Below, piece by piece: positions 3,430 to 48,690 of a stretch of 64,000 bases of DNA; within the stretch, counting starts at the first letter, position 1; each line of letters begins with the position of its first letter. This DNA comes from Mytilus galloprovincialis (taxonomy: Eukaryota; Mollusca; Bivalvia; Mytilida; Mytilidae). The translations under genes and the position numbers were made by a program. The DNA lies in the NCBI RefSeq assembly GCF_965363235.1, contig NC_134848.1:61962181-62026180 (forward strand). Reading direction: 5' to 3'. The notes beneath the pieces are model-generated. The model saw only the letters and a program-made list of their open reading frames with translations. It made no database searches and was not told where the DNA came from.

Positions 3430-4180
3430 AACTCAGCTCAAAATGTGGAGGCCTATAGGAAAAAGTCTGTATAATAAAACTCAGCTCAAAATGTGGAGGC
3501 CTATAGAAAAAAAGTCTGTATAACTGTGATTTTCAACAATTTTCAAAGTTGTAAACCCATAATTTTGGCAAAAAATAGTGGAGAGGAACAAAACTTAAAC
3601 ATGATCTGTAACTCATCATGAGTAACTCACATACCAAAAATCAGCCCAATATCTGAAAGTGTTTAGAAAAAAAGTCAGTATAACTATTATTTTCAACAAT
3701 TTATCAAAGTCCAAAGCCCGTTATTTCGGCAAAAATTAGCGAAGCGGAACAAAACTTAAACTTGACCTGTATTTCATCATGGTTACCTCACATACCAAAG
3801 ATCAGCCCAATATCTGAAAGCGTTTAGAAAAAAGTCCGTATTACTGTGATTTTCAAACCATTTTCAAAGTTGTAAACCCTTGATTTTGGCAAAAAATAAT
3901 GGAGAGGAACAAATCTTAAAACTAGATATGTAACTCATCATGGTTAACTCACAAACCAAAATTCAGCCCAATATCTGAAGGCGTTTAGAAAAAAAACTCT
4001 GTATAACTGTGATTTTCAAGAATTTATCAAAGTTCAAAGCCCGTAATTTCAGCAAAAATTAGCGGAGAGGAGCGGAGAGGAGCAGAACTTAAACTCGATC
4101 TGTAACTCATCATGGTGAACTCATAAACCAAAAATCAGCCTAATATCTGAAGGTATATAGAAAAAACTCCGTATAATGGT
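3430..4180. repeat. Degenerate tandem array, unit about 161 bp
   Basis: The segment AAAAGTCTGTATAACTGTGA recurs near 3511, 3672, 3832 and 3995, each time preceded by AATATCTGAAAGCGTTTAG and followed by GATTTTCAACAATTT and GGAGAGGAACAAAACTTAAA. Spacing is about 160-165 bp, giving a little over four units with visible divergence. At the left edge a piece of about 41 bp (CTCAGCTCAAAATGTGGAGG and neighbours) is duplicated near 3430 and 3478. The array stops a few bases before the hairpin-bearing tail that borders the satellite. Confidence 0.8.
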
Positions 4181-4182
4181 TT

Positions 4183-4383
4183 GTTGCGGAATGACGGAAT
4201 GACGGAATTTCGGAAAGATGGAATTTCGGACAAGGGTTTAAACTAAATGGCTCCGACAACTTCGTTGCGGGGCCATAAAAACGTGTTTATATTCTGTGAT
4301 AATTAAGCCTGTCTTGTATTTGACCGACATGCTGAATCGGATTTTAACGTGATAGTTACCAAGGTAACAGTCCCCAGGAAGTC
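4183..4383 (-). repeat. Probable 3' part of the satellite-bearing SINE
   Basis: This segment lies against the left edge of the 68 bp array. It has GACGGAATGACGGAATTTCG, then GGCTCCGACAACTTCGTTGC followed by GGGGCC (4249-4274), which folds into a hairpin with an 11-12 bp stem, and then TTTTAACGTGATAGTTACC. Read on the minus strand it follows the array just as the tRNA-like head at 11195-11320 precedes it, so I infer that the two are ends of one SINE-type unit split by the array. Assignment to a named SINE family needs a library comparison. Confidence 0.45.
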
Positions 4384-7300
4384 ATGACACCCCAATCTGA
4401 CACGTTATTCTACTTCAATCGACACATATATACTCTTACTCTCTAGTGCAGTATACACCCATAGCTGACACGTTATTCTACTTCAATCGACACATGTATA
4501 ATCTTACTCTCTAGTGCCGCATACACCCTAATCTGATACGTCATTCTACTTCAATCGACACATATATACTCTTACTGTCTAGTGCCGCATACACCCTAAT
4601 CTGACACGTCATTCTACTTCAATCGACACATATATACTCTTACTCTCTAGTGCCGCATACACCCTAATCTGATACGTTATTCTACTTTGATCGACACATA
4701 TATACTCTTACTGTCTAGTGCCGCATACACCCTAATCTGACACGTCATTCTACTTTGATCGACACATATATACTCTTACTCTCTAGTGCCGCATACACCC
4801 TAATCTGACACGTCATTCTACTTCAATCGACACATATATACTCTCACTCTCTAGTGCCGCATACACCCTAATCTGACACGTTATTCTACTTCAATCGACA
4901 CATATATACTCTCACTCTCTAGTGCCGCATACACCCTAATCTGACACGTTATTCTACTTCAATCGACACATATATACTCTCTCTAGTGCCGCATACACCC
5001 TAATCTGACACGTTATTCTACTTCAATCGACACATATATACTCTCACTCTCTAGTGCCGCATACACCCTAATCTGACACGTTATTCTACTTCAATCGACA
5101 CATTTATACTCTTACTCTCTAGTGCCGCATACACCCTAATCTGACACGTCATTCTACTTCAATCGACACAAATATACTCTTACTGTCTACTGCAGCATAC
5201 ACCCTAATCTGACACGTCATTCTACTTCAATCGACACATATATACTCTCACTCTCTAGTGCCGCATACACCCTAATCTGATACGTTATTCTACTTCAATC
5301 GACACATATATACTCTCACTCTCTAGTGCCGCATACACCCTAATCTGACACGTTATTCTACTTCAATCGACACATATATACTCTTACTCTCTAGTGCAGT
5401 ATACACCCTAATCTGACACGTTATTCTACTTTGATCGACACATATATACTCTCACTCTCTAGTGCCGTATACACCCTAATCTGACACGTCATTCTACTTT
5501 GATCGACACATATATACTCTTACTCTCTAGTGCAGCATACACCCTAATCTGACACGTCATTCTACTTCAATCGACACATGTATACTCTCACTCTCTACTG
5601 CCGCATACACCCTAATCTGACACGTTATTCTACTTTGATCGACACAAATATACTCTTACTCTCTAGTGCCGTATACACCCTAATCTGACACGTTATTCTA
5701 CTTTGATCGACGCATATATACTCTCACTCTCTAGTCCCGCATACACCCTAATCTGACACGTCATTCTACTTGGATCGAAACAAATATACTCTTACTTTAT
5801 AGTGTCGCATACACCCTAATCTGACACGTCATTCTACTTCAATCGACACATATATACTCTTACTCTCTAGTGCCTCATACACCCTAATCTGACACATCAT
5901 TCTACTTCAATCGACACATATATACTCTAACTTTCTAGTGCCGCACACACCCTAATCTGACACGTCATTCTACTTCAATCGACACAAATATACTCTTACT
6001 CTCTAGTGTCGCATACACCCTAATCTGACACGTCATTCTACTTCAATCGACACATATATACTCTTACTCTCTAGTGCCGCATACACCCTAATCTGACACG
6101 TCATTCTACTTCAATCGACACAAATATACTCTTACTCTCTAGTGTCGCATACACCCTAATCTGACACGTCATTCTACTTCAATCGACACATATATACTCT
6201 TACTCTCTAGTGTCGCATACACCCTAATCTGACACGTCATTCTACTTCAATCGACACAAATATACTCTTACTCTCTAGTGCCTCATACACCCTAATCTGA
6301 CACGTCATTCTACTTCAATCGACACATATATACTCTAACTTTCTAGTGCCGCACACACCCTAATCTGACACGTTATTCTACTTCAATCGACACATATATA
6401 CTCTTACTCTCTAGTGTCGCATACACCCTAATCTGACACGTTATTCTACTTTAATCGACACATATATACTCTTACTCTCTAGTGCCGCATACACCCTAAT
6501 CTGACACGTCATTCTACTTCAATCGACACATACATACTCTTACTATCTAGTGCCGTATACACCCTAATCTGACACACATCATTCTACTTCAATCGACACA
6601 TATATACTCTAACTATCTAGTGCCGCATACACCCTAATCTGACACGTTATTCTACTTCAATCGACACAAATATACTCTTACTCTCTAGTGCTGCATACAC
6701 CCTAATCTGACACGTTATTCTACTTCAATCGACACATATAAACTCTTACTCTCTAGTGCCGCATACACCCTAATCTGACACGTTATTCTACTTTGATCGA
6801 CACAAATATACTCTTACTCTTTAGTGTCGTATACACCCTAATCTGACACGTTATTCTACTTCGATCGACACAAATATACTCTTACTATCTAGTGCTGCAT
6901 ACATCCTAATCTGACACGTTATTCTACTTCAATCGACACATATATACTCTTACTCTCTAGTGCCGCATACACCCTAATCTGACACGTTATTCTACTTCAA
7001 TCGACACATATATACTCTTACTCTCTAGTGTCGTATACACCATAATCTGACACGTTATTCTACTTCGATCGACACAAATATACTCTTACTATCTAGTGCT
7101 GCATACACCCTAATCTGACGCGTTATTCTACTTCAATCGACACATATATACTCTTACTCTTTAGTGTCGCATACACCCTAATCTGACACGTTATTCTACT
7201 TTGATCGACACAAATATACTCTTACTCTCTAGTGCTGCATACATCCTAATCTGACACGTTATTCTACTTCAATCGACACATATATACTGTCACTCTCTAG

Positions 7301-10300
7301 TGCCACATACACCCTAATCTGACACGTTATTCTACTTCGATCGACACAAATATACTTTCACTCTCTAGTGCCGTATACACCCTAATCTGACACGTTATTC
7401 TACTTCGATCGACACATATAAACTCTTACTGTCTAGTGCCGCATACACCCTAATCTGACACGTTATTCTACTTTAATCGACACATATACACCCTAATCTG
7501 ACACGTTATTCTACTTCGATCGACACAAATATACTTTCACTCTCTAGTGCCGTATACACCCTAATCTGACACGTTATTCTACTTCGATCGACACATATAA
7601 ACTCTTACTGTCTAGTGCCGCATACACCCTAATCTGACACGTTATTCTACTTTAATCGACACATATACACCCTAATCTGACACGTTATTCTACTTTGATC
7701 GACACATACATACTTTTACTCTCTAGTGCTGCATACACCCTAATCTGACACGTTATTCTACTTTGATCGACACAAATATACTTTTACTCTCTAGTGCTGC
7801 ATACACCCTAATCTGACACGTTATTCTACTTTGATCGACACATATATACTCTTACTATCTAGTGCCGCATACACCCTAATCTGACACGTTATTCTACTTC
7901 AATCGACACATACATACTCTTACTCTCTAGTGCCGCATACACCCTAATCTGACACGTTATTCTACTTCAATCGACACATATATACTCTAATTCCTAGTGC
8001 CGCATACACCCTAATCTGACACGTTATTCTACTTCAATCGACACATATATACTCTTACTCTCTAGTGTCGTATACACCCTAATCTGACACGTTATTCTAC
8101 TTTGATCGACACATACATACTCTTACTATCTAGTGGCGCATACACCCTAATCTGACACGTTATTCTACTTTGATCGACGCATATATACTTTCACTCTCTA
8201 ATGCCGCATACACCCTAATCTGACACGTTATTCTACTTTGATCGACACATATATACTTTTACTCTCTAGTGCCGCATACACCCTAATCTGACATGTCATT
8301 TTTCTTTGATCGACACATATATACTGTCACTCTCTAGTGCCGCACACACCCTAATCTGACACGTTATTCTACTTCAATCGACACAAATATACTCTTACTC
8401 TCTAGTGCCGTATACACCCTAATCTGACACGTTATTCTACTTTAATCGACACATATATACTCTTACTCTCTAGTGCCGCATACACCCTAATCTGACACGT
8501 CATTCTACTTTGATCGACACAAATATACTCTTACTCTCTAGTGTCGTATACACCATAATCTGACACGTCATTCTACTTTGATCGACACAAATATACTCTT
8601 ACTCTCTAGTGCCGCATACACCCTAATCTGACACGTTATTCTACTTTAATCGACACATATATACTCTTACTATCTAGTGCTGCATACACCCTAATCTGAC
8701 ACGTTATTCTACTTCGATCGACACAAATATACTTTTACTCTCTAGTGCCGCATACACCCTAATCTGACACGTCATTTTTCTTTGATCGACACATATATAC
8801 TGTCACTCTCTAGTGCCGCATACACCCTAATCTGACACGTTATTCTACTTTGATCGACACATATATACTCTTACTCTCTAGTGTCGTATACACCCTAATC
8901 TGACACGTTATTCTACTTTGATCGACACATATATACTCTTACTCTCTAGTGTCGCATACACCCTAATCTGACACGTTATTCTACTTTGATCGACACAAAT
9001 ATACTCTTACTATCTAGTGCTGCATACACCCTAATCTGACACGTTATTCTACTTTGATCGACACAAAGATACTCTTACTCTCTAGTGCCGCATACACCCT
9101 AATCTGACACGTTATTCTACTTTGATCGACACATATAAACTCTTACTCTCTAGTGCCGCATACACCCTAATCTGACATGTTATTCTACTTTGATCGACAC
9201 ATATAAACTCTTACTCTCTAGTGCCGCATACACCCTAATCTGACACGTTATTCTACTTTGATCGACACATATAAACTCTTACTCTCTAGTGCCGCATACA
9301 CCCTAATCTGACACGTTATTCTACTTTGATCGACACATATAAACTCTTACTCTCTAGTGCCGCATACACCCTAATCTGACACGTTATTCTACTTTGATCG
9401 ACACATATAAACTCTTACTCTCTAGTGTCGCATACACCCTAATCTGACACGTTATTCTACTTTGATCGACACATATAAACTCTTACTCTCTAGTGCCGCA
9501 TACACCCTAATCTGACACGTTATTCTACTTTGATCGACACATATATACTTTTACTCTCTAGTGCCGCATACACCCTAATCTGACACGTCATTTTTCTTTG
9601 ATCGACACAAATATACTTTTACTCTCTAGTGCCGCATACACCCTAATCTGACACGTCATTTTTCTTTGATCGACACATATATACTGTCACTCTCTAGTGC
9701 CGCATACACCCTAATCTGACACGGTATTCTACTTTGATCGACACATACATACTCTTACTTTCTAGTGTCGCATACACCCTAATCTGACACGTTATTCTAC
9801 TTTGATCGACACATACATACTCTTACTCTCTAGTGCCGCATACACCCTAATCTGACACGTTATTCTACTTCGATCGACACAAAGATACTCTAACTCTCTA
9901 GTGCAGCATTCACCCTAATCTGACACGTTATTCTACTTCGATCGACACAAAGATACTCTAACTCTCTAGTGCAGCATACACCCTAATCTGACACGTTATT
10001 CTACTTCAATCGACACATATATACTCTAACTCTCTAGTGCTGCATACACCCTAATCTGACACGTTATTCTACTTCGATCGACACAAATATACTCTTACTC
10101 TCTAGTGCCGTATACACCCTAATCTGACACGTTATTCTACTTTGATCGACACATATATACTCTTACTATCTAGTGCTGCATACACCCTAATCTGACACGT
10201 TATTCTACTTCAATCGACACATACATACTCTTACTCTCTAGTGCCGCATACACCCTAATCTGACACGTTATTCTACTTCAATCGACACATACATACTCTT

Positions 10301-11178
10301 ACTATCTAGTGCTGCATACACCCTAATCTGACACGTTATTCTACTTCAATCGACACATACATACTCTTACTCTCTAGTGCTGCATACATCCTAATCTGAC
10401 ACGTTATTCTACATCAATCGACACATATATACTCTTACTCTCTAGTGCCGCATACACCCTAATCTGACACGTTATTCTACTTCAATCGACACATACATAC
10501 TCTTACTCTCTAGTGCCGCATACACCCTAATCTGACACGTTATTCTACTTCAATCGACACATACATACTCTTACTATCTAGTGCTGCATACACCCTAATC
10601 TGACACGTTATTCTACTTCAATCGACACATATATACTCTTACTCTCTAGTGCTGCATACATCCTAATCTGACGCGTTATTCTACTTCAATCGACACATAT
10701 ATACTCTTACTCTCTAGTGCCGCATACACCCTAATCTGACACGTTATTCTACTTCAATCGACACATATATACTCTTACTATCTAGTGCTGCATACACCCT
10801 AATCTGACGCGTTATTCTACTTCAATCGACACATATATACTCTTACTCTCTAGTGCCGCATACACCCTAATCTGACACGTTATTCTACTTCAATCGACAC
10901 ATATATACTCTCACTCTCTAGTGCCGCATACACCCTAATCTGACACGTCATTCTACTTCAATCGACACATATATACTCTTACTGTCTACTGCAGCATACA
11001 CCCTAATCTGACACGTTATTCTACTTTAATCGACACATATACACCCTAATCTGACACGTTATTCTACTTTGATCGACACATACATACTTTTACTCTCTAG
11101 TGCTGCATACACCCTAATCTGACACGTTATTCTACTTCAATCGACACAAATATACTCTTACTCTCTAGTGCCGCATAC
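4383..11178. repeat. 68 bp satellite array, about 100 copies
   Basis: The consensus unit starts CACGTTATTCTACTTCAATC, continues GACACATATATACTCTTAC and CTCTAGTGCCGC, and ends ATACACCCTAATCTGA, which is 68 bp. Successive CACGT starts are spaced by 68 over nearly 6.8 kb, giving about 100 units. Differences sit at a few positions: GTTATT or GTCATT; TTCAATC, TTTGATC or TTCGATC; CATATA or CAAATA; GCCGC, GTCGT or GCTGC. Three units are shortened by about 22-23 bp (near 7480, 7660 and 11036), and one pair is part of an exact duplication of about 181 bp. No open frame runs through the array. It borders a SINE-like head on the right and a hairpin tail on the left. Confidence 0.97.
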
Positions 11179-11194
11179 TTAACGGATTGCAGCA

Positions 11195-11320
11195 ACATTG
11201 AGACCAATTTTAAAGTCTTTGGTTCTGTAGGTCGGGTTTGAACCCACAACTTCTCTCATTCAAGGCAAACGCGCTACTAAAATAGTCCAGACTCGTTAGT
11301 GCTGGTTGTGAGACTTGTAT
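11195..11320 (-). repeat. tRNA-derived SINE head next to the satellite
   Basis: On the minus strand the sequence has TAGTAGCGCGTTTGCCTTGA followed by a B-box-like GGTTCAAACCC (plus-strand 11234-11245), the usual layout of a Pol III promoter from a tRNA-related SINE head. After the B box the minus strand reads ACCAAAGACTTTAAAATTGG, then enters the 68 bp array directly. No full cloverleaf can be drawn, so this is a SINE head and not a tRNA gene. Confidence 0.6.
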
Positions 11321-11429
11321 CATTTCATCTATTAAAAAGACTTGTATTAATTTGTATTTATATTGCGATTAGCCATTTCAATTGATATTTTATAGATTTC
11401 CGTTCTATGTTGTGATGTTACACTATTTT

Positions 11430-12977: not shown

Positions 12978-14666
12978 TTATGCTAAAATATGCAGATTTT
13001 TCATGATTTCTCGTCGTTTATAAACATAAAGGTTTCTTTTCAGATGAGGAAATGTACTTGCATCTTGTAACAGTTTGGACGACGCGTCATCACGGTGAAA
13101 ACCGTGCTTATTCATTACTTCAATAACGTATTCTATTGGCTTATTGTTGACATGGTTCAACCCTCCTTGTCCTGGGACTGCCCAGCTTAATATTATGCCT
13201 TCATTGGCATGTCTGAATATATTGTCTAGAAATATTTCCTCGTATTCTTTAGGAATATGCTCGGCTACTTCAATAGAAATGACCCAATCATAAACTGGTA
13301 GCCCAAAATGTGGAATAGTAAGGTCCATATATTTAACATTTCCTTTGCTCTCCTCTTCAGTAAATGGTCCCCCGTCGTATGAATCGTACGACTTTATCTT
13401 TCCTAATCCTAAAAGTTTTGTTTTGTATTCACCAGTTCCGTCACCAAAACTTGCTACACTTTTACCCTGTAATAAGTCCGACAATGCCGGAAGTAACGTC
13501 TTGTCTGCTCCCAGATGTTGACCTCCTCTACTACAATATCCCCCGGCCGCTGCGGTACCTTTCTTTCTCTACAATAGAAACAAATAGAAACAATATGTTC
13601 ACATATACATTCCGCTCAACCTTTTTATAGTAAAATTGGTATAGTAAATAAATAAGAAGTCAAACAGATAAAAAGACTATAGATCTAACGAGTGTGTATC
13701 ACTAAATGTGGTGGGGAGATACATGTACCGCATTTTTGCGCCTGTCCCGAGTCAGGAGCCTTTGGCCTTTGTTAGTCTTGTATGATTTTTTATTTTAGTT
13801 TCTTGTGTATAATTTGGAGTTTAGTATGACGTCCATTATCACTGAACTAGTATAGATATTTGTTTAGGGGCCAGCTGAAGGACGACTCCGGGTGCGAGAG
13901 TTTCTCGCTGCATTAAAGACCTATTGGTGACCTGCTGTTGTCTGTTCTATGGTCGGGTTGTTGTCTCTTTGACACATTCCCCATTTCCATTCTAAATTTT
14001 ATATTATATCTATAGACATTTTGTTTTGTTTACGACTTGTTGCTAGTATAAATACACGTTGGATATCGGTTAATATTGAATTCTGTGGAAAACCAAACGA
14101 AAAGAGAGGGTTAATATAAGTCGGGACATATAAATGTTGAAAATATACAGCACAGCCATATCTTTTGACCTTTACAAAAATAGCAGTGCATAAAATCTTT
14201 CCATTCTAGGATAATTTTTTTTAGGAAACTTCATAGAAAAAGTGGCACAGAAGTGTTTTAGCCCGTAAACGGAATTTTTATAGGAAATTGCATTGTCTAT
14301 ATTTACTGGCGTGCAACCTACAGTAATGCACATGTGTTTTTATTTATATTTATTTACCTCACACTGCAGTACCCCGATTCTTTTACTCAATTTATTAAGC
14401 ATTGCTGATACTGCATTTCTCTGTTTTCTGATAACATCCGTGATATTGGAATTGCTTTGCATTGATCCGATAACTGGTAACACATTTATGGCACTATCCT
14501 GCTCGAATCTTTTGACATTCGTTTCACCTTGACTCAATACTTGGACGTTATTGTCACTTTGAACGACTGTTTTGTCTCCACTTCCGGCCACCAAGTAGAA
14601 TACATTAAACCCAATGAATACACAAGCTGCCAGTATGAGCACTTCTCGTATGTTTAGTTTCGGCAT
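12978..14666 (-). CDS. Membrane-anchored SAM-methyltransferase-like protein, two coding exons
   Basis: Coding exon 1 is 14666-14358 and exon 2 is 13568-12978 on the minus strand. The donor is GAG|GTAAAT and the acceptor TTGTAG|AGAAAG, both phase 0; the joined product is 299 residues. An acceptor-like TAATTTCAG about 35 bp before the ATG suggests a 5' UTR intron. Residues about 8-27 (VLILAACVFIGFNVFYLVAG) form one hydrophobic segment, so a type II membrane or Golgi protein is likely. Residues about 75-102 look coiled-coil prone. The rest is a class I methyltransferase-like fold: SAM-binding loop VASFGDGTGEY (about 141-151), YDSYDGGPF, and DWVISIEVAEHIP (about 197-209), followed by SWAVPGQGG (about 231-239). 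I recognise this family from invertebrate genomes as uncharacterised; the substrate is unknown. The intron carries two repeat copies. A broken copy of the last exon follows downstream. Confidence 0.8.
13690..14012 (+). repeat. Copy of the CGCCTGTCCCAAGTCAGGAG repeat family in the methyltransferase intron
   Basis: It runs GCGCCTGTCCCGAGTCAGGA, TTAGTCTTGTATGATTTTTT, TTTAGTATGACGTCCATTAT and TTGTCTCTTTGACACATTCC, ending CCATTTCCATTCTAAATTTT. The same order occurs at 46960-47640 (fullest copy), 16840-17200, 47640-47865, 30170-30320 and 36955-37062. The constant 3' end and variable 5' end fit a retrotransposed family with 5' truncation. Confidence 0.75.
14115..14335 (+). repeat. Repeat shared with 62465-62670
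   Basis: The blocks ATATACAGCACAGCCATATC, TTTTGACCTTTACAAAAATA, CATTCTAGGATAATTTTTTT and AAATTGCATTGTCTATATTT reappear, in the same order and slightly diverged, at 62465-62670. This gives two members of a family of roughly 200 bp. It reaches to within about 25 bp of the 3' border of methyltransferase exon 1. Confidence 0.65.
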
Positions 14667-27067: not shown

Positions 27068-30000
27068 ATGATAAGTGCACGTAAAATGGGTTGGAACCTT
27101 TTATCGATGATTTGTATTGTTTATCTTGCTAAAACAGGTACGTATAATTGTGCTTAGTAAACGTAGAAGGTAAGTATGAATACAAATAGGAGATGCTGCA
27201 TATATATATATCAACGAAACAACAACTAAATGTAAATTAATGTATCTGTTCCCCGTCATATTGTAAACTGTCGTATATAAGTATTAATCAAAGCATGAAA
27301 GCTATTTTATAAGGCTGGACTGGTCTGCTTAAACATTGGAGCTGGTTCAAATTCTTTGAACTAATCAGTTTATTGTTGTAACCTGATCTTGCGACCATAA
27401 AACATGTCGAGCACGCATCACGTGGTTCTCAGATTCAAAAATCAACTAATCAAAATACCGGATTTCAAACTTAAGTTTCAAATACAAATTTTGTACTCTG
27501 AGCAAAGTTTTATGACCATAGTCGTAACAGCAATAACAAGGTCATTCATATGAATGAAGAATGTTTTACTCCTATAGTCTCCCCAAATTGCCAAGATGAA
27601 TCGTAATCAGTACTGTCTTGAATCCAAATTCGAAAGGACTGTGAACATGGACATTAAAAGAGGGACGAAAGATACCAAAGGGACAGTCAAACTCATAAAC
27701 TCATAATTTATAGTATATTACTCCCAATGTACAAAATGTATAATAGTCTTGACAAATCTCAGTACTAGTCTTGTTTGTAGTCTGCTCGACTGTCTTCTCT
27801 ACTACTTGATTGTCTATTATTGTTCTTTGTATTCCAATGAGTACTGAGATTTGTCAAGGTTATTGTAAATTTGGTGTAAGCCTGGTATATACATATCTAG
27901 GAAGTTGATTGGTTAATAGCGACCACGTGGAGACCCTTTTTTTTTGATATTGGGTTAGAGTTACGTCCCTTTGTAAAAACAGCATGACATTGAAGAAAAA
28001 TATTTGGAAACTCTCCATCCAAACAACACATGCCGATATTGACGATGGACGACTGAAAGTAAATGCTGAAATTAAACACATTAATGCTAACAAGTGTGTT
28101 GGTAATGTTGACATTTTTTTTTAATTGACCGATGGAAGTAGATTTTTAAGACTTGGTCACTTTTATAGTCCACTAGTCTAAATAGATTGTCGGTAATATA
28201 AATTAGTTACACAGTGTTCCAGTGACCTTACCCGATATAAATAGGTCAGTAAATTGCATGTAATGTAGGATTCGCGAATTTCGCTCTCACCCAATATATT
28301 TTTTGTGTACCCATTTATATATCGTATAAGGTCACTAGTACTTTATGTCACTTATGTTATATTAATATTCGGAAAAAAATGTTGCGCCCGGTATATTTTA
28401 GTATTAATACCAAAGTAGAGTACTATGGGTACGTTATAAATTACCGGAACTACATACATGTATTTATATATAATCCATGAGATTTTATCAAATTATCTCT
28501 TCAGTGACCTCAATTGTTCTCTTCTTCTTTTCTTTCTTGGTCTATTGACTTTGATTTTAATATCAAATCGTTTCTGAATTGTTTTTGTTGAATTATTTTA
28601 CAACTGTCATGATTCCGCTGTCTCATAGATTCATTTAAAAAAAAATATATATTCATGACTTACGATTGCTGATTTTTGGTGCATTTTGATGCAGTATAGG
28701 AGGCTGGGAATAATCACCAACTGATTTTTTATATAACATATGGTTTGTTTTTATTTCAGCGAGTGGTGCCAATAGCTGCCAAGATGGATGGGAATCTTTC
28801 AAAGACAAATGCTTTCTGTTCTCCGAAGACCAGAAATCTTGGAGTGATGCAAAGGTATTACAATCTTTTTAACATATTAAAAACAAGAAGTTGTGGTATG
28901 AGTGCCAATAAGACAACTATCCATCAAAATAACAATTTAGAAAAGTAAACCATTAGCTGACACAGAACAGCAAGCTATAAAAGGCCCAAGATTAATAAGA
29001 GTAAAACAATTCAAACAGGAAAACCAACGGTATAATCGATAAAATAACCCCAGAGAAACCTACGGAAGCCGGTTAGTGTCAGGGTAGAGTTTTATTTTTA
29101 AGTCGTTGTAACGACTTAGCTAACTTGTTTAAACGACTTAGCTAAGTTGTTAAACAACTTAACACATTTATCTTGTTATAACAACTTAGCTAACTTGTTT
29201 TAACGACTTAGCTTACTTGTTTAAACAACTTAGCTAACTTGTTAAAACGACTTAGCTAACTTGTTTAAACAACTTAGCTAACTTGTTATATAACGACTTA
29301 TCTAATTTAACTCGTTATAACAACTTAGCTTACTCGTTATAACGACTTAGCTAAGTCGTTTTAACAACTTAGCTATCTCGTTGAAACGACTTAGCTAACT
29401 CGTTTAAACAACTTAGCTAACTTGTTATAACGACTTAGTTAGCTAAGTCGTTTTAACAAGTTAGCTAAGTTGTTTAAACGAGTTAGCTAAGTTGTTTAAA
29501 CAAGTAAGCTAAGTCGTTAACACAAGTTAGCTAAGTTGTTATAACAAGATAAATATGCTAAGTCGTTATAACAACTTAGCTAAGTCGTTTAAACAAGTTA
29601 GCTAAGTCGTTAAACGACTTAAAAATAAAACTCTACCCTGACACTAACCGGCTTCCGTAGAAACCAATATGAAACCACACAAACAAACGACAACCGCTGA
29701 AAAACAGGCGCCTCACTGACTCTATTTGTTCACAGATTCCATGCAAACCACAGTCATGAACGGCTAACCCTAACTCAGATGATTAAAACATTTCACATTT
29801 AAAAAAAAAATAAGAACAAACATAATAAACTCCAAGGCTAAGCGAAACAACCGAAAATATAGAAAACAACTGGCATATTCCTGACTTGGAACATGCATTG
29901 TCCGAAGAAAATGGTGGGTTGAACATTTTTTATAGCTAAGTAGATCCCCAATTATAACTGTATGTCAGTTGTTTATAATTCCGTTATAATGGCAATATTC

Positions 30001-35594: not shown

Positions 35595-35965
35595 TAGGTT
35601 AACTTCTAACGTGATGGTACATAAAAAATGTACCCATATTGCACCTATAACTTCTAACGTGAGGGTACCCATATTGCACCTATAACTTCCAACGTGAGGG
35701 TACCCATATTGCACCTATAACTTCTAACGTGAGGGTACCCATATTGCACCTATAACTTCTAACATGAGGGTACCCATATTGAACCTATAACTTCCAACGT
35801 GAGGGTACCCATATTGCACATATAACTTCTAACGTGAGCGTACCCATATTGCACATATAACTTCTAACGTGAGGCTACCCATATTGCACCTATAACTTCT
35901 AACGTGAGACTACCCATATTGCACCTATAACTTCTAACGTGAGGGTACCCATATTGCACCTATTT
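35595..35965. repeat. 35 bp tandem array, about 10 copies
   Basis: The unit CACCTATAACTTCTAACGTG plus AGGGTACCCATATTG is 35 bp and repeats about ten times, with minor changes (TTCCAACGTG, TAACATGAG, GAGGCTACC). The first unit carries an insertion (CATAAAAAATG). The minus-strand frame across it only translates the repeat. It lies downstream of the lectin stop codon. Confidence 0.92.
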
Positions 35966-37062: not shown

Positions 37063-37255
37063 TTATTATTCATCAAGTATAAACGCATCAAATAAAACGA
37101 ATGCAAAAGAAGACACCAAGAGCTTTTACTTATTGTAAAACACAGATGCATACAAACAGTTGATTAATCTCTCAAAAGTCGTCCTGAATATGCATGAAAT
37201 ATTTGACACTGGACGTTAAACTATGAGTGGCCGTTCGTGTCATTGGCGGTATGAA

Positions 37256-38148: not shown

Positions 38149-41100
38149 TTAAAAGGAAATGAAATCTTTAAACCGCGCTGGCGTTTTCAATTCGGAGAGC
38201 TTACGGAGAACGCGCTTATTATCTTGTTCAGTGCTCGAGTTACTAAGTGTCAAGTCATGTTCGAGACTATTATCATGTTGCGCAGTCGGCTCGTCCAGAT
38301 TTTCAACATCGTCGATATTTTCGCAAATAAGAATAGGCGGGGGCTCCGCGCGTTCTGGTGGTAGGTCACGGATAGGCCCAAGAAGGCTATCTTCGTCATG
38401 GCCATCTGAATCAGACTCCTCATTGTACACATTCTGAGAATATCTTGGATTTTGCTGGGCACTTATAGTGTTTAAAACTTTATAACATTCCGAAAGTTTT
38501 ACTTTGTAGGACGAGGCGCGGAGTTGATTGCCTGAGAATTTTTTGATGAAACACCATTCGCCATCACGGGCTACAACAAGGTACCGATCTCGCGATTGGG
38601 TCTTTGATCTGTCGGTATAAAGGTAAACCAAATCCCCTATATTAATATCAGGGGTCGGACGACCGGGTCGACTGCATTTAGAATTTTCGCTAAATCCGTG
38701 ATTTTTATATCGAGCCTCGTGCTGTGCGCGAATAAGGTTCATGTCAGAAATTGGCAACTGTTCATGAGTAAATTGACTTCTTTGAGTCCATAGTTCGCGG
38801 GAGGACAATCCACGCTGGCGAAGCCTAGAATTAAGTCTCGTAGTAGCTATAACTAGTGTATTTTCAGATAGAGGAGAATGATCGTGTTCCTCACGAAGTA
38901 ACTCGTCTTCGAGCTCAGCGATGGCTTTATCGGCAACTGGATTTTTGTTCCGATTTTTAACACGGCCAATTTCAACTGATATGTTGAGTTGCTTTAAGTA
39001 TGAATCGTCACATAAAGGGCGAAAACCCGGGGCCGGGTCAACTCGAACGACAACACTTGGACCGTTTAAAGGCTTTAACGGTATCAATAAGTGTATGAGC
39101 CCATCTCGCAAGCTACCTAGTTTTTCGTCTTTGATAAAGCATGTACTAGTGTACGACGTTACAGTTTCTCTGACGACCAGTATGAGTTGGCGGTTGCGCT
39201 TAAGAACGTCGGCCACGTAAGATATGCCAACCAAGTCCGGTGGGTCTTCTGAAGACTGCTCGACGAGGCTCTTAGGGAACCGTTTTAAAGACGCGCATGT
39301 GTGACAGGAGTCACTAGCCTGTTCGGCCGCCTTTGGCATGTCTAAAGCGTAAAAGTGGCGCTTTAAGACGAGGTTTAATTGGTGTTTTGACGGATGGTCC
39401 AACTTAATATGTAGAGCAGTGACGAGTCCGTCAAGAACGTTACGTGGAACAATGATCAATTCGTTGGGAGGAGCAAGAGGATCACAACGCCGAACAACTA
39501 ACAAACCGTCTTTGGCGATTGATGCAACATTCAGGTAACGTTTGACGTCTTTAATGTTTGTCAGTTTTTTGGAGGGCCGGGTGCCTTGTTTTAAATGAGC
39601 GTGAGTGCGTCTAAGATCAGGGCATTCTGATTGAATATTAATCCAGGCCGACCTGGTGGTGAAAGGTAAGCGAAATTCGTCATTGAGAACGTCTTGAATG
39701 CTTACGGCTCGAACGACAGAATCTTCGGTACGCGATATAAAGCAACAAACCTGACAATTAGGCTCTGTACAAACGGGTGCGTTTCTGCTTGCAAAGTCGG
39801 ATGGAATATTTGCACGACCGGATAAATGGTTGACGCTGACCTGGTATCGGCTTACAACAGAAAGAAACGATGTGACACGCGGACTGGCCGAAAATTCACC
39901 GCGACATAGTTTTTCAAATCCCTGTACGCATGGTTTACTATCTGTCAACACATTCGCTTGCAGTTTTGACTGAATAATAAAGGGACTGAAATGTTTGACA
40001 CTAGCGGCAATGGAAAGCGCTTCGATTTCACACGGTAGCCACAACACTTGATGTTTACGCAACTTAGCACTGAAAAATCCTGCTAAGGACACTTTACCGT
40101 CACGATTTATGTATAGGGTCGCTCCGATACCGCGTTTAGTGACGGAACCGTCTGTGACTATCCACAGTTGATCACTGCATTTAGATAGCGTGATGGCTTT
40201 ACGGGAGCTCAGAGACTTTTGGGCAAACTCAAAATGTTCTCTTAGTATGTCGGACCAAATAATTTTGTCAGCTGATTTCATACCACTTATTTTCTCTTCT
40301 AATGGGGCAATTAAATTGGAACAATTCGGAATGACGCGGCTTAGCATCTTGTACAAACCGATAAATGATCAAAGACCCCACACAGTGTCTGGTACGGGAC
40401 ACGAGGCTAGTGTTGCTACTCTGTGTGTGCTAGCGGAAATCGAACCCTGTGACCAAATCCAACCTAGGATTGTTATCGATTTTGGGCAAATAACAGTTTT
40501 GCTAGGTGATAGGCAAATTCCTGATTTTTGTAGCGACTGAAGAACGCACTCCCAATTGTATAAAAGCTCCTCCGGGGTATTACCGCCACAAAATAAGTCA
40601 TCTGCCAACTTAGCTACGCAACCTTTTTGTAAGAAATCCCCCACTATACGACACATTAGTTCTTCAAGAGCCGTTTCGGAACCAGGCATTCCCATCGCAC
40701 AACGTGTATATACGCGAACTCCACGGTAAGGGGTCGCGACTCCGCAATACTTCATCGAATCTTTTGCAAGGGGGATTTGGTAAAATGCGCTCGTAAGATC
40801 AGACTTGATTATATATTTCCACTGTGCGATCGTACGGAGTGTGGAATCCACGTCAGGCATAAGAGAGGGTTGCGGCTTACTATATCTGCCAACATCGGCA
40901 AATGCTGTCACAAGTCGGAAACCACCGGAAGCTTTTTTGACAAGAAATGAAGGGTTAATATACTCAACTGAAATTCCGACGTCTTCGGGTTTACGGAACA
41001 CTCCTTTACATTCCAATTCGTCAAATTTGTTTTGGAGTTCTACCAAATTATTTTTTGAATACTGTGGCATTCTACCTTTCCGTTGGGGAGGCTGGACAGG

Positions 41101-42141
41101 ACCCATATTAAGAGATGCTTCAAAAGGACCTATTTCCCCATTATAACCTTCAAAGTTAGGACTAAAAACTTCACTGAACTTTCGAAGAAGTTCATTAAAC
41201 TGGGTTTGGAGATCTGGACTAAGTAAATTATCTGGGTCTACAGAGACTTGTTTGAAAAATTGGGAAGTATGTGTGGAGTCTATGTAGTTTGTTGTTTTTA
41301 TGTCACGGATATTGTCCGGTGCCTCTGGTGCGTTGTTTATGGTAGTCGTAAGTCGTACTCGACAGAAATGTTCATTTCGTTGTATGAACTGCGGTACCGA
41401 CGTGTTATTCACGATGCGTATTTTGCCTGCGACCGACTGAGCAATTTGGGGACTTGGCCAATCTTTCGTACGAGAAGCGTCAGTGTGAGGCTCGACCGCG
41501 AGAATGCAATCCGATTCTATTTCCGATGGGATGTCGTATTCGCCGTAACATCCTGGCCAAACTACTGAACTTGCTGATGGAGCCCGGATAAGAAAGGCCT
41601 GTGTTCTACGTACGCGAGTATTACTAGAGTTAAGTTCCTCGTTTGGGCTACCATACATAACAGTTACCTTATCGCGTATTACGATTTTATGTTTGCTAGG
41701 GAAAATCGCTGACATGAAAGGAATACCGGCGAGTATATCAACGTCCAAGTCGTTCACTACTAGGGCCTCTAACTGTAACTCGATTCCGTCTCCCGAAAGT
41801 GTGAAATGACATTCACCAACTATATTTAACGGGGTAACACCGTCAGCTTGTAAAGCGGAATGGTTGCTTTTCTTGATTGTTACGCCGATGTAATCCGCGG
41901 AAGAAGCTTTTATCATACTCACCTCAGCACCCGTATCTAGTGTTAGCTCAAGTGGGAAATGTTTATAAAATGCCTTAAAGTAAGGGGACTGTTTAGTGCT
42001 CACCCGTCTTAAAGCAGATACAACTCTGAGCTTACTAGGACCTACATTATCATTTAAAAATGAGACTTGTTCATTATCAACATTGTCCTCAGACTCACTA
42101 TCACCTACTTCTGTACAATAAGATTGCCTTACTCTGGACAT
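38149..42141 (-). other. pol region of the Gypsy-type element
   Basis: Family parts in order along the minus strand: an aspartic protease (DTGA motif) near 41.9 kb; reverse transcriptase near 40.4-41.0 kb with a LADD catalytic box; RNase H (TDGS and TDSK boxes) near 39.8-40.2 kb; integrase with an HHCC zinc-binding module near 39.3-39.45 kb and a DDE-type core near 38.9-39.25 kb; and a C-terminal tail rich in acidic residues. Host function is not implied. Part of the fossil element described for 37632-43297. Confidence 0.9.
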
Positions 42142-42179
42142 ATATTGTTTGTCTTCATCAGGTAAATGTTTACAAGTAC

Positions 42180-43001
42180 TTAAAAATGTTGGGACGGACG
42201 ACCTGCTTGCTTACATAAAATACAACACTTTATTTGACGACCAGTTCTTATACTACCTGTCTTTTTTGCACTTCTGTCAAAATGTTTGTCTTTTATTGAC
42301 GCCCGTAAAACTTTGGCATCAGTGGCTGAATGAATTTCGTCAAGTAAACTATCAAGTGCCTGTGAAATTTCAGGTTTCAAAGAAGCTAATGTTTTTGACC
42401 GTAACTCAGTTCCATATCGCTGCTTCACTAGGTTGGGCAAGTCACGATTAATAAGTCTTAACCAAGTTAGTACAATCAGGTTTTCCAAAGAAGGCGATAG
42501 TTCTTCGTCGGCTTCAGGTACTTCTCCGTGGTGATGAATATTGCCACCGGCACGAAGCATATTGTCTTCAATAAAACTAGCCAATCGCTGAAATAAGTCC
42601 TCAGGACGCTCATCTGGTTCCAAAAAGATGCTATTAAAATCAAGAAAGTGTCCACCAGTAGACTGAAATCCGTAGTGTAGACGAATTGACTGCCAAATAG
42701 AATTAATGGATGTCCCAAGCATAAGGTCCAAATGTGTGCACTTTTGGGCTGCTGTTCGTCGGTTAGCTTCGGCAACCGCCTCGCCATCGTCAACAATGCC
42801 ACGTAAAGGATTGGCGTTGGTTTTCTTCAGCCATGTAAATCCATCTACAAGGAACGCTGCGAAGTTTTGATCAAGGGACAAGGTATATTGTAAGTTTTGT
42901 CTCCATGCTTCAAATGATGTTATTGTTTCAACTTTTGAGAGTGACCATTGTTTTGGAGCACGTGTGCCTGCCATTTTGTAAAGATCAGATAAGTCCAACA
43001 A
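42180..43001 (-). other. gag-like region of the Gypsy-type element
   Basis: A frame of about 270 residues lies directly after the 5' LTR leader. It has a helical, Trp- and Leu-rich composition typical of capsid regions and ends with a CILC-type zinc-knuckle beginning. It precedes the protease region, as expected. Assignment rests mainly on position. Confidence 0.75.
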
Positions 43002-43117
43002 TAGAAAATGTTGTCGTGTTAGTCAGAATAAATGACAAATTTTCCTGCTCACCTTTTGCTTCTAGAGTGGAATAATGTTCAAATTGTTGAGTTATTTGAG
43101 ATGTGGGTTTCTTAAAC

Positions 43118-47879: not shown

Positions 47880-48690
47880 GTTGTTGACATGATACCTGTT
47901 TTATGTAGACGAAACGCAAAAGCGCGTCTGGCATATTAAATTATAATCCTGGTACCTTTGATAACTATTTACACCACTGGGTCGATGCCACTGCTGCTGG
48001 ACGTTTCGTCCCCGAGGGTATCACCAGCCAAGTATTCAAAACTTCGGTGTTGACATGAATGTCAATAATGTGGTAATTTTTATAAATTTCCTGATTACAA
48101 AACTTTGAAATTTTTGATGAACTATGGATTTTCATATCCCAAGCATAGATTACCTAAACCGTATTTGGCACAACTTTTTTGAATTTTGGATGCTCAATGC
48201 TCTTCAACTTTGTACTTGTTTTGCTTTATAAATATTTTGATAATTGCGTCACTGATGAGTCTTATGTAGACGAAACGCGCGTCTGGCGTACTAAATAATA
48301 ACCCTGGTACCTTTGATAACTATTTACACCACTGGGTCGATGCCACTGCTGGTGGACGTGTCTTTCCCGAAGGTATCACCAGCCTAGTATTCAGCACTTC
48401 GGTGTAACATGAATATCAATAATGTGGTCATTTTTATAATTTTCCTGTTTACAAAACTTTGAAAATTTCGAAAAACTAAGGATTTGCTCATCTCAGACAT
48501 TGATTAATTTAGCCGTATTTGGCACAACTTTTTTGAATTTTGGATCCTCAATGCTCTTTAACTTTGTACTTGTTTGGCTTTATAAATATTTTGATATGAG
48601 CGTCACAGATGAGTCTTATATAGACGAAACGCGAGTCTGGCGTAGTAAATTATTATCTTGGTTACTTTGATAACTATTTCTTCTGTTACC
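47880..48690 (+). repeat. Tandem dimer-plus of a roughly 360 bp repeat (GACGAAACGCGCGTCTGGCG)
   Basis: Two full units and the start of a third. Each has TGTAGACGAAACGC, CGCGTCTGGC, TGATAACTATTTACACCACT, GGGTCGATGCCACTGCTG, GTATCACCAGCC, TGGCACAACTTTTTTGAATT and CTTTGTACTTG. Starts are near 47910, 48268 and 48622. An inverted single copy lies at 52285-52670 and a fragment at 34215-34345. Confidence 0.85.

Follow-up and report, generated by a model that had tools for sequence, protein, structure and literature searches.

The window, i.e. the whole 64,000 nucleotide stretch of Mytilus galloprovincialis DNA analysed here, carries a long tandem array framed on both sides by SINE sequences, next to a second repeat with 161 bp tandem units (Table 1). 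Elsewhere in the window, a methyltransferase-like reading frame (12978-13568) has as its best match, among the 120 listed of 177, a Mytilus californianus protein with 95% identity, and long reading frames on the minus strand (38149-43022) resemble by eye a retroelement with reverse transcriptase and integrase parts.

Table 1. Positions of the array and of the sequences adjoining it in the window.
Feature	Position	Strand	Basis and remarks
Neighbouring repeat: hairpin end, short CCG-type repeats, 161 bp tandem units	3476..4281		TRF and genome matches; low-end limit provisional
Hairpin, near the end of the neighbouring high-copy repeat, outside the SINE	4249..4274	-	Folding against shuffles; genome matches
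SINE body 3' of the array, ending short of the usual SINE 3' end	4279..4387	-	Profile match 4446-4279 (model 172-342, 81.5 bits)
Array, 101 units, mostly 68 bp	4388..11177	-	Equivalent to SINE model positions ~163-232; unit alignment and profile
SINE head and first part of the body	11178..11306	-	Profile of nine dispersed copies matches 11306-11110 (model 36-232, 78.2 bits)

The array and the SINE sequences that frame it

A preliminary description of this DNA had reported a satellite of about 100 copies of 68 bp. Wrap-around alignment bears this out, with 101 head-to-tail units, and the 68 bp period was also found by TRF. The length is exactly 68 bp in 92 of the 101 units; of the other nine alignment rows, six make up three pairs of 68+43 bp, and the remaining three are single units 67, 70 and 64 bp long. 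On average the 92 full-length units differ by 4.8% from the consensus and by 7.6% from each other. Adjacent units show a mean of 4.25 site differences, against 5.1-5.5 for units 20 to 50 apart. Identical blocks of at least 120 bp recur inside the array (eight pairs, the longest of 210 bp), and the 68+43 bp variant is present at three places; two of these lie in a 144 bp identical block, some 3.4 kb from each other.

Tandem arrays in general are easily misassembled, which would favour reading the number of units as an artefact. But the 92 units of 68 bp comprise 76 distinct sequences, so that the array is not one unit copied erroneously. The exact number could be off; that it is an artefact as such seems to us exceedingly improbable.

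The boundaries of the units are also the junctions of head, array and subsequent SINE body. To compare the unit with the SINE we built a profile from nine dispersed copies (L005, L007, L016, L023, L025, L030, L042, L052 and L053), the array being left out. With an E cutoff of 1 it matched the window 12 times. One runs unbroken through the head and the complete first unit and another, equally unbroken, through the last unit and the subsequent body. Nine single units of the array also match, each at about model 163-232 with E from 0.07 to 0.88. Taken by itself, the consensus unit aligns with 67 of its 68 bases for 4.4 bits (E 0.1), while the best of 1000 dinucleotide shuffles reaches -1.1 bits. 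Disparities appear between individual SINE copies: for seven of the nine at most 48 of 1000 shuffles score as well as the unit, none for L016 and L023, whereas the unit is no better than shuffles against L007 (568/1000) and L042 (246/1000). Since the E-value of the unit alone is 0.1 and its scores against single copies are uneven, the argument draws on position and collinearity no less than on likeness. The array has the attributes of a SINE-derived satellite, i.e. at least four tandem units (here 101), a unit that corresponds to part of the SINE and is shorter than it, and outer units that run into SINE sequence on both sides, each in one piece.

The head had been described as tRNA-like with a B box. 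The box is indeed there (GGTTCAAACCC, at 11244-11234 on the minus strand); the term "tRNA-like" rests on this box and on the likeness to dispersed copies. No tRNA was called by ARAGORN in the 64-kb window, a search of 11150-11400 against Rfam, with E allowed up to 10, yielded no tRNA match, and tRNA models had zero matches with the SINE head and the dispersed copies. The target-site duplication of a tRNA-derived SINE was not found at the array locus: none was better than shuffles with the element end taken at the hairpin side, and with the end taken at 4279 the best shared stretch is 8 bp, equalled in 67 of 200 shuffles. The SINE 3' end present in L007, L052 and L053 was not found at the array locus either. 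Beyond the neighbouring repeat, where a 3' remainder would lie had this repeat inserted into the SINE, there is only a weak match (3426-3390, E 0.052). No convincing further copy of head or tail was found elsewhere inside the window; a fragment like the 3' end of the dispersed SINE copies lies away from the array, at 37178-37220 (profile, E 0.024).

The hairpin and the neighbouring 161 bp repeat

The preliminary description also gave the SINE a tail with a hairpin. The hairpin is real: stretches taken from the two strands gave z values of -3.96 and -4.71, and none of 200 shuffles folded as well. But it belongs to another repeat family and not to a SINE tail. The hairpin family begins at about 4280-4282 and continues into the 161 bp repeats (tandem units found by TRF at 3476-4166), and the SINE profile match stops at 4279. 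The two repeats abut within 3 bp, and from these limits the stretch 4183-4279, formerly included in the array feature, can be assigned to the neighbouring repeat.

A query made of body and hairpin gave 780 first-look candidates, of which 40 were scored, for 41 matches. A single one, the window itself, covers both parts. Among the 40 others 38 are to the hairpin part and two to the SINE body, where they stop at window positions 4280 and 4299. Most of the hairpin matches (33 of 38) start at query 114-116, i.e. window 4282-4280, and five at query 91-106. These five reach further toward the SINE side, and would suit an alternative in which head, array and hairpin tail form one SINE type with the hairpin and short repeats as its 3' end; a hairpin with short repeats does resemble a SINE or LINE end, and it directly abuts the SINE body. 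This alternative is nevertheless very improbable given that no other match covers body and hairpin and that the starts concentrate at query 114-116. It is also at odds with L054, one of the hairpin matches, in which the sequence shared with the window takes in the hairpin and the short repeats and then goes on, beyond the supposed tail, to where the 161 bp repeat begins; no SINE head or unit was found in L054.

A query made of the short repeats and one 161 bp unit (1662 first-look candidates, 40 scored) weighs in the same direction. In every one of the 39 other places scored, the short repeats are joined to the 161 bp unit, in many of them with more such units, and one of these matches (C12:49869118-49869379) abuts a hairpin match. 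Given these 39 junctions and the adjacent hairpin match, hairpin, short repeats and 161 bp units make up a high-copy repeat of their own, adjoining the SINE. The preliminary description had made its reading depend on head and hairpin tail occurring together as a short unit; this pairing was not seen.

Dispersed single-unit copies elsewhere in the genome

The genome searched is an assembly of 1.385 Gb in 331 contigs. With the head as query (11170-11330) there were 36 matches, including itself. Thirty loci were fetched, the array locus among them, and the 29 others were compared with a query made of head, one unit and tail. All 29 gave a single collinear match of about 65-71% identity, spanning the query from about 19-61 to 310-332. 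Upstream sequence in common with L002 is found in 26 of the 28 loci other than L002; as this shared sequence lies upstream of the SINE, most of the 29 loci are copies of one larger repeat holding the SINE, not independent ones. L002-L030 thus bring to light a larger dispersed repeat carrying a single-unit SINE of the array's family.

In L007, L023, L042, L052 and L053 the flanks match neither each other nor the larger repeat, over a comparison reaching at most 160 bp upstream and 100 bp downstream (about 30 bp downstream only for L052 and L053). From these unmatched flanks, at least five SINE copies look like separate insertions. Using L053, a single-unit copy, as query we obtained 1425 first-look candidates, the best 40 of which were scored; together with the five copies with unrelated flanks, this is the dispersal of the short form of a tRNA-derived SINE. 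A random 200 kb sample contained one SINE copy (L042), too few for an estimate of copy number.

The stretch opposite the unit is single, 48-73 bp long, in all ten copies examined. Of the 40 scored L053 matches 37 span the unit slot, and their genomic length minus the query length is -3 to 41 bp, too small for a second unit in every case. Intermediates with two or few units were seen neither among these 37 matches nor at the 29 loci, though small duplications may exist at loci beyond these. When almost five array units were used as query, the 28 matches obtained all lay inside the array and came from one first-look candidate. The array unit thus seems to be present at one locus only, a strong but not final result, as the search passes over very frequent words and its scoring is confined to the best candidates. 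Exact patterns were found neither in viral contigs nor in bacterial and archaeal ones.

The short form that had been predicted elsewhere, with head, one unit and SINE body, is therefore found at many loci. Such copies, together with an array unit matched at the array locus alone, support the initial reading of the array as the probable expansion of an internal SINE segment. Conversely, the array could have existed first as a satellite and then been inserted into, or captured by, a SINE copy. Capture of satellite units by mobile elements is discussed in the available part of PMC11121367, and the lack of multi-unit intermediates in the genome matches examined would fit such an origin. But the unit is itself a SINE segment that is single in other copies, both edges of the array fall on segment boundaries, and the unit query matched no other place in the genome. 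We accordingly grant this order of events very little likelihood.

Probable growth of the array and comparison with known satellites

Duplication of the SINE segment in place, followed by unequal exchange and conversion, is the best explanation of the array and in our opinion a highly probable one. The SINE copy at the locus would originally have had one copy of the 68 bp body segment, which would have been tandemly duplicated between two break points with little homology. From two copies on, unequal exchange and conversion between units would have extended the run to 101 units and made it partly homogeneous. The array is still framed by the head and body of its presumed founder SINE, and the separate hairpin-ended repeat now abuts the SINE where its 3' end should be. 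The break points have in common only G before and T after. This minimal homology, the similarity of neighbouring units and the recurring identical blocks fit a first duplication with low homology and later unequal exchange and conversion. RNA-mediated copying is possible for the first duplication; it is not needed, because no other multi-unit copy was seen. We infer the order of events, the mechanism of duplication and the former presence of a complete SINE at the locus. The single-copy form elsewhere, the edges collinear with the SINE, the unit found at one locus only and the repeated blocks in the array are observed.

The hairpin-ended repeat, whose 161 bp units are present at many loci, might in addition favour the tandem expansion of sequences that adjoin its hairpin end, which we regard as very unlikely. 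If it did, the SINE segment would have expanded because the hairpin element joined the SINE copy, and the two side-by-side arrays would share a mechanical cause.

SINE-derived satellites (sSats) are described in squamate reptiles (PMC10702118), work also cited in a review (PMC12692304). According to the available parts of PMC10702118, reptile sSats are like the mussel array in that each unit represents a section of a SINE, less than its full length (about 70-290 nt), that a locus has from a few to hundreds of units, and that the outermost units continue into the SINE; one snake unit is 67 nt, compared with 68 bp here. The SINE and the host are different. Most reptile sSats keep one SINE end, forms with both ends being "minor", whereas the mussel array is flanked by SINE sequence on both sides, the 3' end proper missing. 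In addition, reptile sSats occupy many loci and favour chromosome ends, whereas the one locus found for the mussel unit lies at 61.97 Mb on a contig of 86.5 Mb. Among molluscs, PcH-sat of the limpet Patella caerulea also has a unit containing a SINE segment: in the part of PMC11121367 available, it is a very abundant, pericentromeric satellite with a 179 bp unit, 118 bp of which are like Nin-SINE. That description mentions no framing SINE, whereas the mussel array is single and still framed by its presumed founder. Other satellites from mobile elements are listed in a table of the review PMC9659126.

The process, a scattered repeat seeding a satellite, is thus already known from reptiles and limpets, and the mussel array is a well-supported new case to be added to them. 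It was not reported in the openly licensed literature searched, and its sequence strings had no match in papers. It offers a clean view of a young satellite at a single locus, where the founder frames the array, the unit was found nowhere else and single copies of the source segment are still scattered elsewhere. Such a site could be used to trace, inside a species as well as among species, how an array grows from a single unit.

We take V-SINE / RUDI to be a possible family of the array's SINE, and the neighbouring 161 bp repeat presumably resembles the pearl/CvA and BIV160 repeats. V elements are reported in mussels in the available text of PMC10294476, which cites a reference for V-SINE / RUDI of molluscs. 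The table of PMC9659126 includes pearl/CvA and BIV160, bivalve repeats with internal tandem units; tandem units of about 160 bp are what the neighbouring repeat may have in common with them, a possible likeness that concerns the neighbour, not the SINE array. Further tandem repeats lie in the window: two arrays at 29099-29621 and 35630-35963, with periods of 22/44 bp and 35 bp, and a 354 bp tandem unit in two copies at 47918-48679.
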